Source: Bradyrhizobium sp. NAS96.2 (GTDB lineage: Bacteria > Pseudomonadota > Alphaproteobacteria > Rhizobiales > Xanthobacteraceae). From it: a stretch of 64,000 bases of DNA. The notes under the pieces were generated by a model. It was not told where the DNA came from. It made no database searches and saw only the letters and a program-made list of their open reading frames with translations. The stretch spans positions 1-64,000 of the forward strand of contig NZ_LGHK01000023.1 of assembly GCF_001908235.1 (NCBI RefSeq). Direction: 5' to 3'. Every line of letters begins with the position of its first letter. Position 1 is the stretch's first letter. This document shows positions 7,531 through 23,611 of the stretch, one piece after another. A program made the translations under genes and the position numbers.

Positions 7531-7576
7531 AGCACAAGGATCCCGGTGAGAAGCGATCTTCTGCCATGCGCAAAAC

Positions 7577-7625
7577 CGTTTTCGAACGAAGTGGGTTCCG
7601 GATCGCGTGAAGAAAACGCGTCAAA
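7577..7625. repeat. Short dispersed repeat, family R1
   Basis: A copy of a Bradyrhizobium-type dispersed repeat with the pattern CGTTTTCG..CGAAGTGG, then CCGG.TCGCGTGA and GAAAACGCGTCAAA. A second copy at 19983-20031 lies inside a coding region. This copy is in the 5' region of aapQ. Confidence 0.75.
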
Positions 7626-7647
7626 CTCAAATCGGCCATGCGCGCGT

Positions 7648-18094: not shown

Positions 18095-19387
18095 ATGTCG
18101 TACGGATATGGTCGAGCGGTCCCCATGGCCATGCGGACGCTTCGTGCGGCCGCGGTCGCTTGTCTTGCACTTGTCACATCGGGCGCGGCGCGCGCCTCCG
18201 ACGCCCCTGCCCCGTCGCTGGAGAAGCTCGAACGCATCACCGAGTTCTTCAACAACGAGGTCGCGAGCGGCAAGCTGCCCGGTGCGGTCATCCTGATCCA
18301 GCAGCACGGCAAGCCCGTCTATCTGAAGACCTTCGGCTATCGTGACGTCACGACCAAGTCGCCGATGCGGCCGGACACCATGTTCGCATTGCATTCGATG
18401 ACCAAGCCGATCACCAACACCGCCGCTATGATGCTGGTCGACGACGGCAAGCTGTCGCCACGGGACCCGCTGTCGAAATACATTCCGGCCTTCGCCGACG
18501 TGAAGGTCGCGATCGAACCGGATGGCGGCAACGATCCGGCCAAGGTCGAGCTGGTGCCGCCGATCCGCCCCGTCACGATCGAAGACCTGATGCGGCATAC
18601 CTCTGGCATCACCTACGAATATATCGGCGCCGACTGGATCCAGAAGATCTACCGCGCCGGCCATCTGTTCGACGGCAAGTTCGACAACAAGGAATTCACA
18701 GCAAGGCTCGCCAAGCTGCCGCTGTCGCGGCAGCCCGGCACGCTGTGGCGCTACGGTCATTCCACCGACGTGCTCGGCCGAGTGATCGAGATCGTCTCGG
18801 GCAAGACGCTTTATCAGTTCGAGAAGGAGCGCATCTTCGATCCCCTCAAGATGAACGACACCAGATATGTGCTCGATGCGGAGACCGAACGGACGCGATT
18901 GGCCGAGCCGCTTCCGTCTGACACGATCCTGATCGACGGGGAGAACGACCGCCGCGCGCATCCGGAGTGGGAGTCCGGCGGCGGCGGCCTGGTGTCGACC
19001 ATTCTCGATTATGCGCGCTTCGCGCAAATGCTGCTCAACGGCGGCGAGTTCGACGGCAAGCGCTATCTGAGCCCGGCTGCGTTCAAGGACATGACGAGGG
19101 ACCATATCGGGCCGGGCTCCGGCGTCGGCCGCGACTACTGGTACTTCCCGGGCGACGGCTTCGGTTATGGCTACGGCATCGCGGTGCGCACCGATCCCGG
19201 CATCGCCAGGCCGCCGCCGCCCGGCTCGATCGGCGAGTTGAAATGGGACAGCGGCAGCGGAACCTATTTCGGCGTCGATCCGAAGCTCGACATGATCTAC
19301 ATCATGCTGGAGCAGACCCAGAACGAGCGCCAGCGCATCACGCCGGCGTTCCGCAAGCTGGTGTACGACGCGTTCAGCCCGGATTGA
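18095..19387 (+). CDS. Secreted beta-lactamase-fold serine hydrolase (class C / EstB-like)
   Basis: 430-residue exported protein. The signal peptide is visible after a basic stretch (RTLRAAAVACLALVTSGAARAS). The catalytic SxxK tetrad is S101-M-T-K104 (FALHSMTKPIT), and the second motif reads Y220-G-H222 in place of Y-A-N. A G/S-rich segment WESGGGGLVST fits the esterase-type branch. Such proteins are esterases, D-aminopeptidases or transpeptidase-like hydrolases; true beta-lactamase activity is not implied. Start: the ATG at 18095 has AGGGGCAG eight bases upstream; ATGs at 18125 and 18131 are alternatives that would still keep the signal peptide. Confidence 0.85.
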   Translation: MSYGYGRAVPMAMRTLRAAAVACLALVTSGAARASDAPAPSLEKLERITEFFNNEVASGKLPGAVILIQQHGKPVYLKTFGYRDVTTKSPMRPDTMFALHSMTKPITNTAAMMLVDDGKLSPRDPLSKYIPAFADVKVAIEPDGGNDPAKVELVPPIRPVTIEDLMRHTSGITYEYIGADWIQKIYRAGHLFDGKFDNKEFTARLAKLPLSRQPGTLWRYGHSTDVLGRVIEIVSGKTLYQFEKERIFDPLKMNDTRYVLDAETERTRLAEPLPSDTILIDGENDRRAHPEWESGGGGLVSTILDYARFAQMLLNGGEFDGKRYLSPAAFKDMTRDHIGPGSGVGRDYWYFPGDGFGYGYGIAVRTDPGIARPPPPGSIGELKWDSGSGTYFGVDPKLDMIYIMLEQTQNERQRITPAFRKLVYDAFSPD

Positions 19388-19401
19388 GTTCCGCTAGTGG
19401 C

Positions 19402-19491
19402 CCCGTCATTGCGAGGAGCGAAGCGACGAAGCAATCCATCTATCCGCGTGCTCACGGATAGATGGATTGCTTTGCGTCGCTCGCAATGACG
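19402..19491. repeat. Dispersed palindromic repeat, family R2 (near-perfect hairpin)
   Basis: CCCGTCATTGCGAGGAGCG...GAAGCAATCCATCTATCCG followed by its near-exact complement CGGATAGATGGATTGC...CTCGCAATGACG. It can fold into one long hairpin between the serine hydrolase and the convergent small zinc protein. Confidence 0.75.
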
Positions 19492-19510
19492 AAAGCGGAA
19501 GCGTCGCGCC

Positions 19511-19714
19511 TTACGGCTTCCGCCTAACGTTCTCCTGCCTGCGCCGTGCTGCGGCCGCGATCAGGCTCGCGGTGCATTCGTTGCAGACGAACGCACACTC
19601 ATCCGTGAACAAGCCGATCCGCGGTTCGAGTCCGATCGCCGTCTCGTCGGCGAGCCCGTCGATGACGCCACCGCAGCACACGCATTGGTGGCGCGACGCC
19701 AATTCTCGCTCCAT
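19511..19714 (-). CDS. Small CxxC zinc-binding protein, uncharacterised
   Basis: 67-residue cytoplasmic protein with two Cys pairs spaced like a zinc ribbon: HQCVCCGGVIDG (N-terminal third) and FVCNECTASLI (C-terminal half). The ATG at 19714 (MERELASRH) has GGAGAG about eight bases upstream; a TTG at 19762 would add 16 residues and is less likely. The pattern resembles small ClpX-type zinc fingers but no family name is certain. The tail is basic (ARRRQENVRRKP), so nucleic-acid or protein contact is possible (inference). Confidence 0.6.
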   Translation of the reverse strand: MERELASRHQCVCCGGVIDGLADETAIGLEPRIGLFTDECAFVCNECTASLIAAAARRRQENVRRKP

Positions 19715-19761
19715 GACGCGCTCTCCAGCGCTCGCTGCTTCCCGCTTCAGCTTCCCTTTCA

Positions 19762-19781
19762 ATATATACTATCGTATATAT
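19762..19781. promoter_or_regulatory. AT-rich inverted repeat upstream of the small zinc protein
   Basis: ATATATAC-TATC-GTATATAT, a perfect 8-bp inverted repeat with a 4-bp centre, stands out in a GC-rich surrounding. It lies 48 bp upstream of the zinc-protein ATG and 124 bp upstream of the divergent propeller gene; a candidate operator or promoter core. Confidence 0.45.
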
Positions 19782-19904
19782 CGATGGCGACAAGGCAGGC
19801 GGGTGAACAATCCGGTCGGGAACCCTGCAACAACAACCATCGGCCGGAGACGATCGCCTCACAATTCTGCCTGGTCCAACCAGGTTCATTGAGGAAACGC
19901 GATC

Positions 19905-20972
19905 ATGATAAGAAAGAATGGCGACGCGGAGCATCCGCGCGCAACGGGAGAACTGCTCAATATCCGCCGCGCATCACTGGAGCGTTTTCGGGCGAAGTGG
20001 TTACCGGCTCGCGTGAGGAAAACGCGTCAAAATAAGAATCTGCTGAGCGCTGCGGCCACCATCCTTGCGCTTGGCGCGGCCGGCCACGTGCGCGCCGAAA
20101 CGGCTCCGGTCGGCGTTCCCGAAAAGAGTTTCCCTGAAAGCGTGACCTCGACCTCCGACGGCACGCTTTATGTCGGCAGCTTCAATCAGGGCGGCGTGAC
20201 CAAGATCTCCGGCGGCAAGGCCGAGCAGCTGGTCAAGCCGGGTGCCGCCGACAGCCGCTCGACGCTCGGCGTGCTCGCCGACGAGAAGAGCGGCACGCTC
20301 TATGTCTGCTCCAACGACATCAGCGCGATGGGCGTCGCTGGGCCGAGCGACACCAAGGGCGCGTGGCTGAAAACCTTCGATCTCAAGAGCGGCGCGCCGA
20401 AGGGCAGCTTTGCCCTGAGCGATCCGAAATCGTTCTGCAACGACATCGTGGTTAGTGCCGACGGCACCGCTTATGTCAGCGATTCCTTCGCGCCGTTCGT
20501 CTACAGCCTGAAGCCCGGCGGCACCGCGCTGGCGACGTTTGCCACCGATCCGCAGCTCGCGCCGGCCAAGGACGGCGTCGGGCTCGACGGCATCGCCATC
20601 GGCGCCGACGGCAACCTCTATGTCACGACCTTCATTCCAGCAAAACTGTTCAAGATCGAGGTGAAGGACGGCAAGGCCGGCACGGTGACAGAGTTGAAGC
20701 CGTCGCGGCCGCTCGATCATGCCGACGCGCTGCGCGCCCATGGCAGCGGTTTCCTGCTGATCGAGGGCAACGGCAAGCTCGACAAGGTAACGGTGAAGGG
20801 CAGCGACGCCACGATCGACACCATCAAGGATGGCCTTGCCGAACCGGTCTCGGTGACGCAGGTCGGCGATGTCGGCTGGGTCGCCGAAGGCAAGCTGTCC
20901 TACGTGATCGGCGACAACAAGGGCAAGGACCCCGGCCCGTTCAAGCTGACGCCGGTGGCGCTGCCGAAGTAA
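19905..20972 (+). CDS. Secreted SMP-30/NHL-like beta-propeller protein with repeat-derived N-terminal insert
   Basis: 355-residue protein. The body (residues ~65-355) has beta-propeller blades with repeats such as SDGTLYVGSFNQGG, SADGTAYVSDSFAPFV and GADGNLYVTTFIPAKL, as in SMP-30/gluconolactonase-like proteins; enzyme activity is uncertain. The start ATG has a good RBS (GAGGAA at 19891-19896). Residues 6-44 interrupt an otherwise perfect signal peptide: MIRKN joins directly to LLSAAATILALGAAGHVRA. The inserted 117 bp (19920-20036) end in a copy of dispersed repeat R1, read in frame as RAKWLPARVRKTRQ. Export of the present product is therefore doubtful. The gene appears monocistronic. Confidence 0.8.
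   Translation: MIRKNGDAEHPRATGELLNIRRASLERFRAKWLPARVRKTRQNKNLLSAAATILALGAAGHVRAETAPVGVPEKSFPESVTSTSDGTLYVGSFNQGGVTKISGGKAEQLVKPGAADSRSTLGVLADEKSGTLYVCSNDISAMGVAGPSDTKGAWLKTFDLKSGAPKGSFALSDPKSFCNDIVVSADGTAYVSDSFAPFVYSLKPGGTALATFATDPQLAPAKDGVGLDGIAIGADGNLYVTTFIPAKLFKIEVKDGKAGTVTELKPSRPLDHADALRAHGSGFLLIEGNGKLDKVTVKGSDATIDTIKDGLAEPVSVTQVGDVGWVAEGKLSYVIGDNKGKDPGPFKLTPVALPK
19983..20031. repeat. Dispersed repeat R1 inside a coding region
   Basis: Copy of the R1 repeat (CGTTTTCG..CGAAGTGG, CCGG.TCGCGTGA, GAAAACGCGTCAAA) embedded in frame in the propeller gene. The intergenic copy at 7577-7625 shares the same core. The short match AAGAAT at both edges of the 117-bp insert (19914-19919 and 20031-20036) could be a target duplication. 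Confidence 0.7.
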
Positions 20973-21007
20973 GGGCCGAGTTAAGTATCTCGACAAACTC
21001 GGTGAAC

Positions 21008-21121
21008 CTCTCCCGCTTGCGGGGGAGGTCGGATCGCATCGGCAGATGCGATCCGGGTGGGGGCTCACTCCATGATACGACTCGCGGAGAGAGCCCCCAC
21101 CCCAACCCTCCCCCGCAAGCG
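21008..21121. repeat. Dispersed repeat R3, left part (split by the IS element)
   Basis: Begins CCTCTCCCGCTTGCGGGGGAGGT, has an inner hairpin GGATCGCATC..GATGCGATCC, then GGGTGGGGGCT and its complement AGCCCCCACCCCAACCCTCC. It resumes at 22315 after the IS (CCCGCAAGCGGGAGAGG). An uninterrupted copy is at 38357-38483. Confidence 0.75.
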
Positions 21122-22314
21122 CAGGGGAATCGCATATGAGTAAAACGCGACTTGCGGATCGGTGTTTGAGAGATTCTGTTGTGGCTTTCTCTTTGCGGAG
21201 AAGGCCCGATGCAGTCTTACATTTCGATATTGCGAGAAGTGCGTGACCCGCGCGACATCAATGCTCGTCACCCTATTGGAACTATATTGTTTTTGACTTT
21301 GGCGGCGACGCTGTGCGGGGCCAAGAGCGGTGCCGAGGTGGCCGATTTTGTGGAAGCTCGCGTGGAAGAACTTTCCGCGATCGTCGATCTGCCGCATGGG
21401 GCACCGAGCCACGATACCTTCAGTCGCCTGTTCCGCCTGCTCGATCCGGACGAACTGGCGAAGGCGTTTACGGCCTTTATGGCGGCGCTGCGGGCGGAAC
21501 TCGGGTTGCGGCCGGCGCCGGGGGTTGTGGCGATCGATGGCAAAAGCCTGCGGCGTGGCTACGAGAAGGGGCGGCCCTACCTTCCGCCACTGATGGTGAG
21601 CATCTGGGATACCCAGACGCGAGTGGCCTTGGCCCAAGCGCGGGCGCCCGGTGGAAACGAGGTGGCCGCAACCCTGCAATTGCTGGGCAGCCTTGTCCTC
21701 AAGGGCTGCACAGTGACGGCGGATGCGCTGCATTGCCACCCGGCGATGGCACAGGCGGTATTGGACGCCAAGGCCGATTATGCTCTCGGTCTCAAGGCTA
21801 ACAATGGTCCGCTTTACGCGGAGGCCGAGCGCGCCTTCGCAAAGGCCGGCGACGACATTCCTTCGCTGGCCACGGAGGAGAAGGCCCACGGCCGGATCGA
21901 CCGACGCCGCGCGAGCGTGGTGCCGGTTCCGGCCGCGGCGCGCACCTTGCTGCCTGGCCTCCAGGCGTTTGGTCGCATCGAAGCGGAACGCACCATGGCC
22001 AGCGGCAAGCGCGAAACTGCCACCCGTTATATTGCGCTCTCGCGCAAGCTCTCGCCAGAAACAATGGCCCAAGTCGTGCGTGCGCATTGGAGCATCGAGA
22101 ACCAGTTGCATTGGATTCTCGATGTTGTATTCGACGAAGATGCCGCACGAACCCGCAAGGATTACGGACCGGAAAACCTCGCTGTGATCCGTCGCCTTGC
22201 TCAGAACATCTTGCGAATGCATCCCTCCAAAACATCCATCAGCAGCAAAATGCGCCGCGCCATGTGGAGCAAAGACTTCTTCTTCGAACTCTTTACTCAT
22301 ATGCGATAGCCCTG
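21122..22314 (+). mobile_element. Complete ISAs1-family insertion sequence
   Basis: 1193-bp element bounded by 23-bp terminal inverted repeats (21122-21144 and 22292-22314; start CAGGG, inner part ATCGCATATGAGTAAA, two mismatches). It is flanked by a 10-bp direct duplication CCCGCAAGCG (21112-21121 and 22315-22324). A single transposase gene fills it, and the stop codon lies inside the right repeat. Identical flanks and an intact gene indicate a recent insertion, into an R3 intergenic repeat. Length, TIR and duplication size fit the ISAs1 family. Confidence 0.92.
21209..22309 (+). CDS. ISAs1-family transposase (DDE type)
   Basis: 366-residue DDE transposase. The N-terminal domain (VRDPRDINARHPIGTILFL, FSRLFRLLDPDEL) is the DDE_Tnp_1-associated region typical of ISAs1. 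The catalytic residues are probably D110 (VVAIDGKSLRRG), D172 (VTADALHCHP) and E297 (HWSIENQLHWILDVVFDED). No frameshift or internal stop. The ATG at 21209 has GGAGAAGG 6-13 bases upstream; an ATG at 21179 is in frame but lacks an RBS. It moves the surrounding 1193-bp element. Confidence 0.93.
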   Translation: MQSYISILREVRDPRDINARHPIGTILFLTLAATLCGAKSGAEVADFVEARVEELSAIVDLPHGAPSHDTFSRLFRLLDPDELAKAFTAFMAALRAELGLRPAPGVVAIDGKSLRRGYEKGRPYLPPLMVSIWDTQTRVALAQARAPGGNEVAATLQLLGSLVLKGCTVTADALHCHPAMAQAVLDAKADYALGLKANNGPLYAEAERAFAKAGDDIPSLATEEKAHGRIDRRRASVVPVPAAARTLLPGLQAFGRIEAERTMASGKRETATRYIALSRKLSPETMAQVVRAHWSIENQLHWILDVVFDEDAARTRKDYGPENLAVIRRLAQNILRMHPSKTSISSKMRRAMWSKDFFFELFTHMR

Positions 22315-22378
22315 CCCGCAAGCGGGAGAGGGGGCGCAGTCTCTCCGTGGTCAAGGTCCGACCACATCTCATCATGTG

Positions 22379-23611
22379 CTAGATCACATAAAACCCGTGG
22401 GTCCCGTCGCGGCGGAGCTGGTCGACGAGGCCGTACTCCCAATCGAGATAGGCCTGCATCGCCTGCTCCGCGACGCCGGTGCCTTCATAGGGACGCCGGT
22501 AGCGATGCGCGGGGTCGGGCCTCGGCACGACGCGCGGCGGGCCGACTTCCAGTGATCCGTCATAGCCGCCTTCGAGCACGTAAGCTTCCCAGCCCATCTG
22601 CGCGAGCCAGGACGCCGTCATGTCGGCGCGGATGCTCTTGTCGTCGGTCAGCACGATGCGCGCGCCGCGCACCGGCGCGGCCATGTCGATCTCCTGCACC
22701 AGCTGGCCGCCGGCATAGTGGCGGAAGCCGGCAAGATGACCCGCGGCATATTCCTCCGCATCGCGCACGTCGAAACGATAGAGCGTGCGGTGCGCATCGC
22801 CCTCCAGCGCGGCGAGTTCGCGCGCGCCGATGTGGCGGACGCCGGCCCGATAGGCGACGTCGCGGGCATTGTCGGAGGCGCCCGCGAACGGCCCGACATC
22901 GCCGCGCTTGCCGGCGCCATGCTCGAGATCGTGCTTGGCGAGCGTCCAGCCAATGGTGCCATTGCGCAGTGCCCGCACCTTGTTGGGCAGGCCGGCATTG
23001 ATCAGCGACTGCGTGCCGATGATCGAGCGGGTGCGGCCGGCGCAGTTGACGATGATGGTGGTGTCGGGATCGGGCGCCGCGCCGCCTGCGCGCAGCACGA
23101 GCTCCGCACCGGGCACGCTGACCGAGCCCGGGATGTTCATGGTGGCATATTCGTCGAACCGACGCACATCGAGGATCGCGATGTTGGCCTTGTCCGAGAT
23201 CAGCGCGGCGACCTCGTCGGCACTGAGCGATGGCGTGTGCTTGCGCGCCTCGACCAGCTCCCCGAACGCCTTGGCGTAGGAATTGACGTCCTCGAATACC
23301 TCGTAGCCGGCCGCCTTCCAGGCCTTGAGGCCGCCGGCGAGCGCGGCGACGTTGCCATAGCCGAGCTGCCGCAACTGGTCGGCCGCGGCAGCGACCAGTC
23401 CCTCACCATTGTCATAGAGCACGATCGGCGCGTCCTTGCGCGGCAAGCGCTGCTCGGCTTCGAGCGCGATCCGGCCGGCCGCCATGTTGGCGGCAAACAG
23501 CGGATGGCCGGTGGCGAATTCCGCCTCGTGCCTGACGTCGAGCAGCGCGATCTCCCGGCGCAGCAGCAGCGTTGCACGGATGTCCTGGGGGGTGACGGAA
23601 GAAACTGTCAT
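22379..23611 (-). CDS. Multidomain rhodanese-like protein (three tandem domains)
   Basis: 410-residue sulfurtransferase-like protein of three consecutive rhodanese modules: residues ~5-105, ~125-235 and ~260-375, each with the LLDVR/ILDVR/RFDVRD strand. Only the second has an active-site cysteine (IIVNC190AGRTRS). In the first the loop reads LYDNGEG and in the third LTDDKSI, so those are non-catalytic. It may transfer sulfane sulfur or cyanide sulfur, with flanking domains serving binding. The ATG at 23611 precedes the first strand; an upstream ATG at 23671 adds a 20-residue non-conserved tail. Monocistronic, divergent from glgC. Confidence 0.85.
   Translation of the reverse strand: MTVSSVTPQDIRATLLLRREIALLDVRHEAEFATGHPLFAANMAAGRIALEAEQRLPRKDAPIVLYDNGEGLVAAAADQLRQLGYGNVAALAGGLKAWKAAGYEVFEDVNSYAKAFGELVEARKHTPSLSADEVAALISDKANIAILDVRRFDEYATMNIPGSVSVPGAELVLRAGGAAPDPDTTIIVNCAGRTRSIIGTQSLINAGLPNKVRALRNGTIGWTLAKHDLEHGAGKRGDVGPFAGASDNARDVAYRAGVRHIGARELAALEGDAHRTLYRFDVRDAEEYAAGHLAGFRHYAGGQLVQEIDMAAPVRGARIVLTDDKSIRADMTASWLAQMGWEAYVLEGGYDGSLEVGPPRVVPRPDPAHRYRRPYEGTGVAEQAMQAYLDWEYGLVDQLRRDGTHGFYVI

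Follow-up and report, generated by a model that had tools for sequence, protein, structure and literature searches.

A copy of a dispersed palindromic repeat, here termed R1, lies in frame in the n-region of the signal peptide encoded by the open reading frame (ORF) 19905-20972 of a 64,000-nucleotide stretch of Bradyrhizobium sp. NAS96.2 (contig NZ_LGHK01000023.1), the whole of which is called the window below. The original prediction, of a dispersed repeat inserted in frame in a signal peptide downstream of the start codon, is borne out in this respect, while the length and boundaries it gave to the insert and the meaning it attached to a bordering AAGAAT motif are not. The features on which the argument rests are as follows.

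19891..19897, forward strand: GAGGAAA motif, the likely ribosome-binding site for the native ATG
19905..20972, forward strand: 355-aa ORF whose product is probably exported and shows weak beta-propeller similarity (SMP-30/phytase-like/ScyE)
19905..19976, forward strand: ancestral codons 1-24 (MIRKNGDAEHPRATGELLNIRRAS), found in orthologues with and without R1
19980..20042, forward strand: inserted 63 bp, one R1 unit of 21 codons, delimited by orthologue alignment
19982..19989, forward strand: left stem arm GCGTTTTC of the R1 palindrome
20018..20025, forward strand: right stem arm GAAAACGC of the R1 palindrome
20043..20096, forward strand: hydrophobic core of the signal peptide and A-x-A cleavage region, recognized by eye
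7574..7627, forward strand: second, diverged R1 copy, found by sequence match within the window and originally described as intergenic

The host gene and its product

The ORF is present as originally called, its ATG lies 7 nt past the GAGGAAA motif, and both signals are located upstream of the repeat, which is in frame within the coding sequence. A Pfam scan of the ORF returned three matches, with SSL_N alone scoring above the cut-off and the phytase-like and SMP-30 models below it, and the ScyD/ScyE score was far under the NCBIfam cut-off. The sequence matches of the 355-aa product in the PDB are mainly beta-propellers (designed Pizza proteins, DrP35 and PknD), along with one SodC entry. The GC content at third codon positions is 61% in codons 1-24 as against 86% in the remainder of the ORF. 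A Tat signal was considered and rejected by eye: the RR pair ahead of the insert is without a hydrophobic +2 residue in most aligned rows and is not conserved in the rows of distant orthologues.

Several further elements are found around the gene. Upstream of it is a perfect inverted repeat, ATATATAC-TATC-GTATATAT (19762-19781), which is operator-like and is conserved in those close orthologues whose upstream DNA is visible. On its 3' side a palindromic stretch (20995-21125) with CTCTCCCGCTTGCGGGGGAGG and GGATCGCATC...GATGCGATCC is probably another dispersed repeat, and closely downstream there is an ORF for an ISAs1-family transposase (21179-22309; NF033564, 295.7 bits against a cut-off of 70).

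Filled and empty sites among orthologues

A search of 100 genomes for orthologues recovered matches in 18, the own genome included; in seven other genomes the copy is at least 70% identical and free of internal stops, whilst that in G037 is broken. To these were added 22 further loci from named genomes, all of them Bradyrhizobium. In the alignment of 5' ends, close orthologues lacking R1 begin with MIxKNGDAGxPRATGELLxIRRAS or a similar sequence, which is directly followed by the hydrophobic core. Seven rows are filled, namely the window, L034 (genome G004), L051 (B. tropiciagri SEMIA 6148), L052 (a metagenome-assembled genome), L053 (B. altum), L060 (SZCCT0338) and L071 (B. pachyrhizi), and they carry 63 extra bp (54 in L071) with a common junction and orientation. 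Eight close rows are empty (L033 of genome G010, L054-L059 and L061), and R1 is likewise lacking at the junction in the nearest outgroups (L062-L064) and in more distant rows. Thus, an in-frame R1 copy occupies a gene whose orthologues may lack it. The insertion claim had been staked on orthologues in related strains lacking the added residues and would have fallen had all of them carried these; the empty sites in 8 of the 15 close-clade orthologues and in the outgroups support insertion. The region AGGAAACGC around GAGGAAA and the native ATG are kept in all 18 aligned rows, and all seven filled frames are open, the sole internal indel being an in-frame one of 9 bp in L071. One of the outgroups, L062 (Bradyrhizobium sp. 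LTSP885), shows an R1 copy in the 5' leader just upstream of the start codon, without an in-frame insert.

The same alignment redraws the insert, which had been taken to span 117 bp (19920-20036). The first half of that segment is the ancestral N-terminus, as orthologues without R1 keep GDAGHPRATGELLNIRRA or close variants of it; hence the ancestral signal peptide was not MIRKN-LLSAAA but MIxKNGDAGxPRATGELLxIRRAS-LLSAAA or similar. The AAGAAT match at the borders is a coincidence and was rejected as a target duplication: the left copy lies in ancestral codons and recurs in L054 and L057, which lack R1, and the right copy is the tail of the R1 consensus. The 63-bp insert corresponds to one R1 unit, as indicated by the length of the consensus and by the spacing of tandem units in another genome (see below). 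Its placement is ambiguous by 3 bp (19977-20039 being equally possible) because CTG stands at both edges. A target-site duplication cannot be pinned down, since the right edge reads CTG in the window and L051 but CTA in the five remaining filled rows; with regard to the hallmarks of MITEs (terminal inverted repeats and a target-site duplication), CTG at both edges is confined to the window and L051. Taken together, the aligned rows show a genuine insertion that is polymorphic and shorter than 117 bp, with the empty site as the ancestral state.

The R1 repeat family

The own genome yields 120 matches to the encoded R1 peptide (E<=1) and has about 100 R1 copies, several of which read as lying between genes, making R1 a dispersed repeat with intergenic copies. 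The further copy predicted near 7577-7625 is indeed present: the R1 core pattern, allowing up to 3 mismatches, occurs twice in the window (once perfectly and once with 1 mismatch), whereas shuffled sequence gives 0.36 occurrences on average and reaches a count of 2 in 4 of 100 shuffles, and together with the genome-wide matches this confirms the repeat as real. The R1 consensus is about 65 bp long, running from CTAGAGCG to AAGAATCTAGAGC, and in an alignment of 97 rows, which leans on the consensus as its query, conservation reaches at least 90% in 40 of 47 core columns. The consensus folds with -23.6 kcal/mol (z -3.33), is often followed by a second palindrome, and is fully open in three of its six frames, of which the one used in the gene is basic (+6) and the other two have charges of -1 and -3.

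Of 61 genomes of the order, 12 (the own genome among them) gave R1-like matches (E<=0.01), as did eight plasmid records (four of Bradyrhizobium and one each of Xanthobacter, Asticcacaulis, Sinorhizobium and Bosea). A member of another family of the order (G129:C1:3419499-3419715) shows four R1-like units arranged head to tail with a 64-65-bp spacing. No Rfam family matched window positions 19000-22500. The tail of R1 contains a GANTC site (GAATC, GACTC or GAGTC), which is kept in all seven in-gene copies though the encoded residue varies (N, T or S); GANTC is the CcrM site (PMC2229807). In the 28 nt past the palindrome it is found in 34 of the 97 R1 rows, too few to conclude from.

Other R1 copies in reading frames

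In the own genome 59 ORFs of at least 140 aa overlap R1 copies; two of these represent the gene studied here, and 40 of the remaining 57 were scanned with Pfam. A domain was detected in 10 of the 40, invariably past the repeat; no ORF had domains flanking it on both sides. Seven of the ten are Pfam-supported N-terminal candidates, four of which (L017, L121, L148 and L137) likely have their own start after R1, while the remaining three (L128, L007 and L113 on the reverse strand) are undecided; in L154, L109 and L113 on the forward strand the domain is found only after R1. A codon-position test on 160 R1 copies from G000, G004 and G010, a part of the copies in those genomes, gave two candidates with coding-like flanks, L115 and L131 (70 aa), and is insensitive, failing to flag the left flank of R1 in the gene studied here. 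L115 (positions 734-2017; G000:C199) is a 428-aa ORF that carries R1 midway, between two stretches of coding-like sequence. Its halves match G003, G004 and G010 in different frames, which could reflect the fusion of two frames by R1 or by a frameshift; alternatively, the ORF may be spurious. Neither the 40 of 57 ORFs nor the codon-position test, an incomplete and insensitive survey, provided a second convincing in-frame copy. The search for further such copies that had been suggested thus offered no evidence, within its limits, for a genome-wide habit like that of Rickettsia, with in-frame R1 in many unrelated genes.

Probable origin, translation and fate of the insert

Based on these observations we consider it very probable that an R1 unit was inserted in the ancestor of a clade, is read through, is near-neutral, and has been kept in several species and lost or replaced elsewhere. 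One unit of about 60-63 bp would have entered between codons 24 and 26 in the ancestor of a single Bradyrhizobium clade, which, going by the species names, may be the B. elkanii group. The ribosome would then read through R1 from the native ATG, which is permitted by an added length that is a multiple of three and by a stop-free, basic strand and frame. The insert extends the n-region to about 45 residues, compared with about 24 without it, while the hydrophobic core, the cleavage region and the mature protein remain intact, so that the protein would still be exported with an unchanged mature product and the insert would be near-neutral, persisting in some species and being lost or replaced in others. 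Basic stretches suit the n-regions of Sec signal peptides, and this may be why R1 survived in this orientation and frame.

Read-through is the simplest account, with a start at an internal GTG possible in six rows. In an alternative that we regard as unlikely, R1 itself supplied a new start, the GTG at codon 37 (34 in L071), and the old ATG is a relict, so that the product in the window would begin MRKTRQNKN-LLSAAA with a short basic n-region. This would give a signal peptide of ordinary length, and an in-frame GTG does occur within R1 in six of the seven filled rows (L052 also has an ATG at codon 33). However, L051 has no such GTG and indeed no ATG, GTG or TTG between codon 1 and codon 62, so that, barring an unusual start codon, R1 must be translated in this row. 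Retention of the native ribosome-binding site and ATG also speaks against a relict, as do the in-frame nature of the 9-bp deletion upstream of the GTG and the state of the upstream codons, which stay open and show a pN/pS of 0.50 over codons 2-24 in filled rows (0.63 in empty rows).

Selection on the insert itself bears on a different, very unlikely scenario, in which R1 was recruited, its basic stretch or its hairpin near the start altering synthesis or export and being kept for that effect. The in-gene hairpin (-19.4 kcal/mol) begins 75 nt past the start codon, and 55 of 56 in-gene codons retain a basic residue, as against 643 of 731 in other copies of the own genome; both would fit such a role. 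However, the seven in-gene copies are related and the 55 of 56 are not independent evidence, the in-gene fold in the window is no better than many shuffles (z -1.40, with 18 of 200 folding as well), and half of the clade does without the insert. Its pN/pS is near one (0.91; 0.75 without the first codon; 1.23 without L071) on very few changes, too few for a firm verdict; the residues show no clear constraint and the insert looks tolerated. The stronger suggestion that the basic frame of R1 is suited to enlarging n-regions, with its gain and loss acting as a reversible modulator of the protein's synthesis or export, appears highly improbable.

The patchy distribution of the insert on both the gene tree and the rpoB tree could also be explained by repeated independent insertion at a preferred target at the codon 24/26 site. 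On the rpoB tree (19 genomes, 6 filled) the filled rows do not form a clade (p-AU 2.25e-7) and at least four changes are required. The gene tree (21 rows), which requires six, is poorly resolved, with 2 of 18 inner branches starred; all filled rows fall within one node (support 96/96), 8 of the 15 rows under which are empty. Even the sister pair L071 and L033 differ, the former being filled and the latter empty. Nevertheless, repeated insertion seems distinctly unlikely, since junction, orientation and length are the same in all seven filled rows, and an old insert subject to deletion or recombination offers a simpler explanation. The agreement at the junction, rather than the tree, is the reason why we prefer a single gain followed by losses or recombination as the likeliest history. 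Empty rows L033 and L061, which have CTA at the junction, possibly bear a scar of loss; in L061 the sequence is CTAGCG, matching the right edge in L034, L060 and L071.

Relationship to known repeat systems

Among the repeats of alphaproteobacteria, RIME1 consists of two adjacent palindromes and is about 108 bp long; R1, often followed by a second palindrome, may resemble it in layout. The CIR elements (CcrM-associated repeats), likewise alphaproteobacterial, possess GANTC sites, and the R1 consensus contains GAATC. However, CIRs are described as having stops in all six frames, with no intragenic copy reported in the text concerned (PMC2229807), whereas the R1 consensus has three open frames and a copy inside a gene, placing it outside the CIR definition. 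The GTAG/CGTC REPs, like R1, are short and mostly intergenic palindromes, some of which lie in ORFs, and they occur in Bradyrhizobium and other alphaproteobacteria (PMC3733652). In CGTC elements the stems measure 8-9 bp and the loops 4-5 nt, and there is a terminal CGTC, whereas R1 has an 8-bp outer stem around a branch of about 28 nt; judged by its consensus fold against the description in the section text of PMC3733652, R1 fits neither the CGTC nor the GTAG class. Br-REP1 and Br-REP2 of B. japonicum are similarly dispersed intergenic Bradyrhizobium palindromes, but their printed consensus sequences are, by eye, unlike R1 (PMC5082802). In the article texts searched, no account of R1 within a Bradyrhizobium gene was found, and four R1 sequence words had no match there, a result that speaks only for those texts.

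In-frame palindromic repeats are described from Rickettsia, Enterobacteria, Neisseria and several REP families (PMC3733652, PMC10969869, PMC2229807, PMC2759123). Like the RPEs of Rickettsia, R1 is a palindrome that also occurs between genes and that, having entered a protein gene in frame, is apparently tolerated there (PMC10969869, PMC2229807); the RPE unit, however, is about 150 bp as against about 65 bp, and RPEs are described in many genes, whereas one convincing case of R1 was found in our incomplete survey. The Yersinia palindromic element RU-2 supplies the N-terminal 30 residues of YPO1552 (Delihas 2007, PMC2759123, PMC2229807). R1, which has no stated relation to RU-2 in these texts, differs in lying between a kept ancestral N-terminus and a kept hydrophobic core, with empty-site orthologues available. 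The R1 insertion is thus a clear instance of a type of event with precedents elsewhere, and it opens no new kind of system. With both states of the site represented among closely related soil bacteria, it provides a natural experiment on how far a basic insert can enlarge the n-region of a signal peptide, and on the way in which non-coding palindromes enter proteins outside Rickettsia and Enterobacteria.
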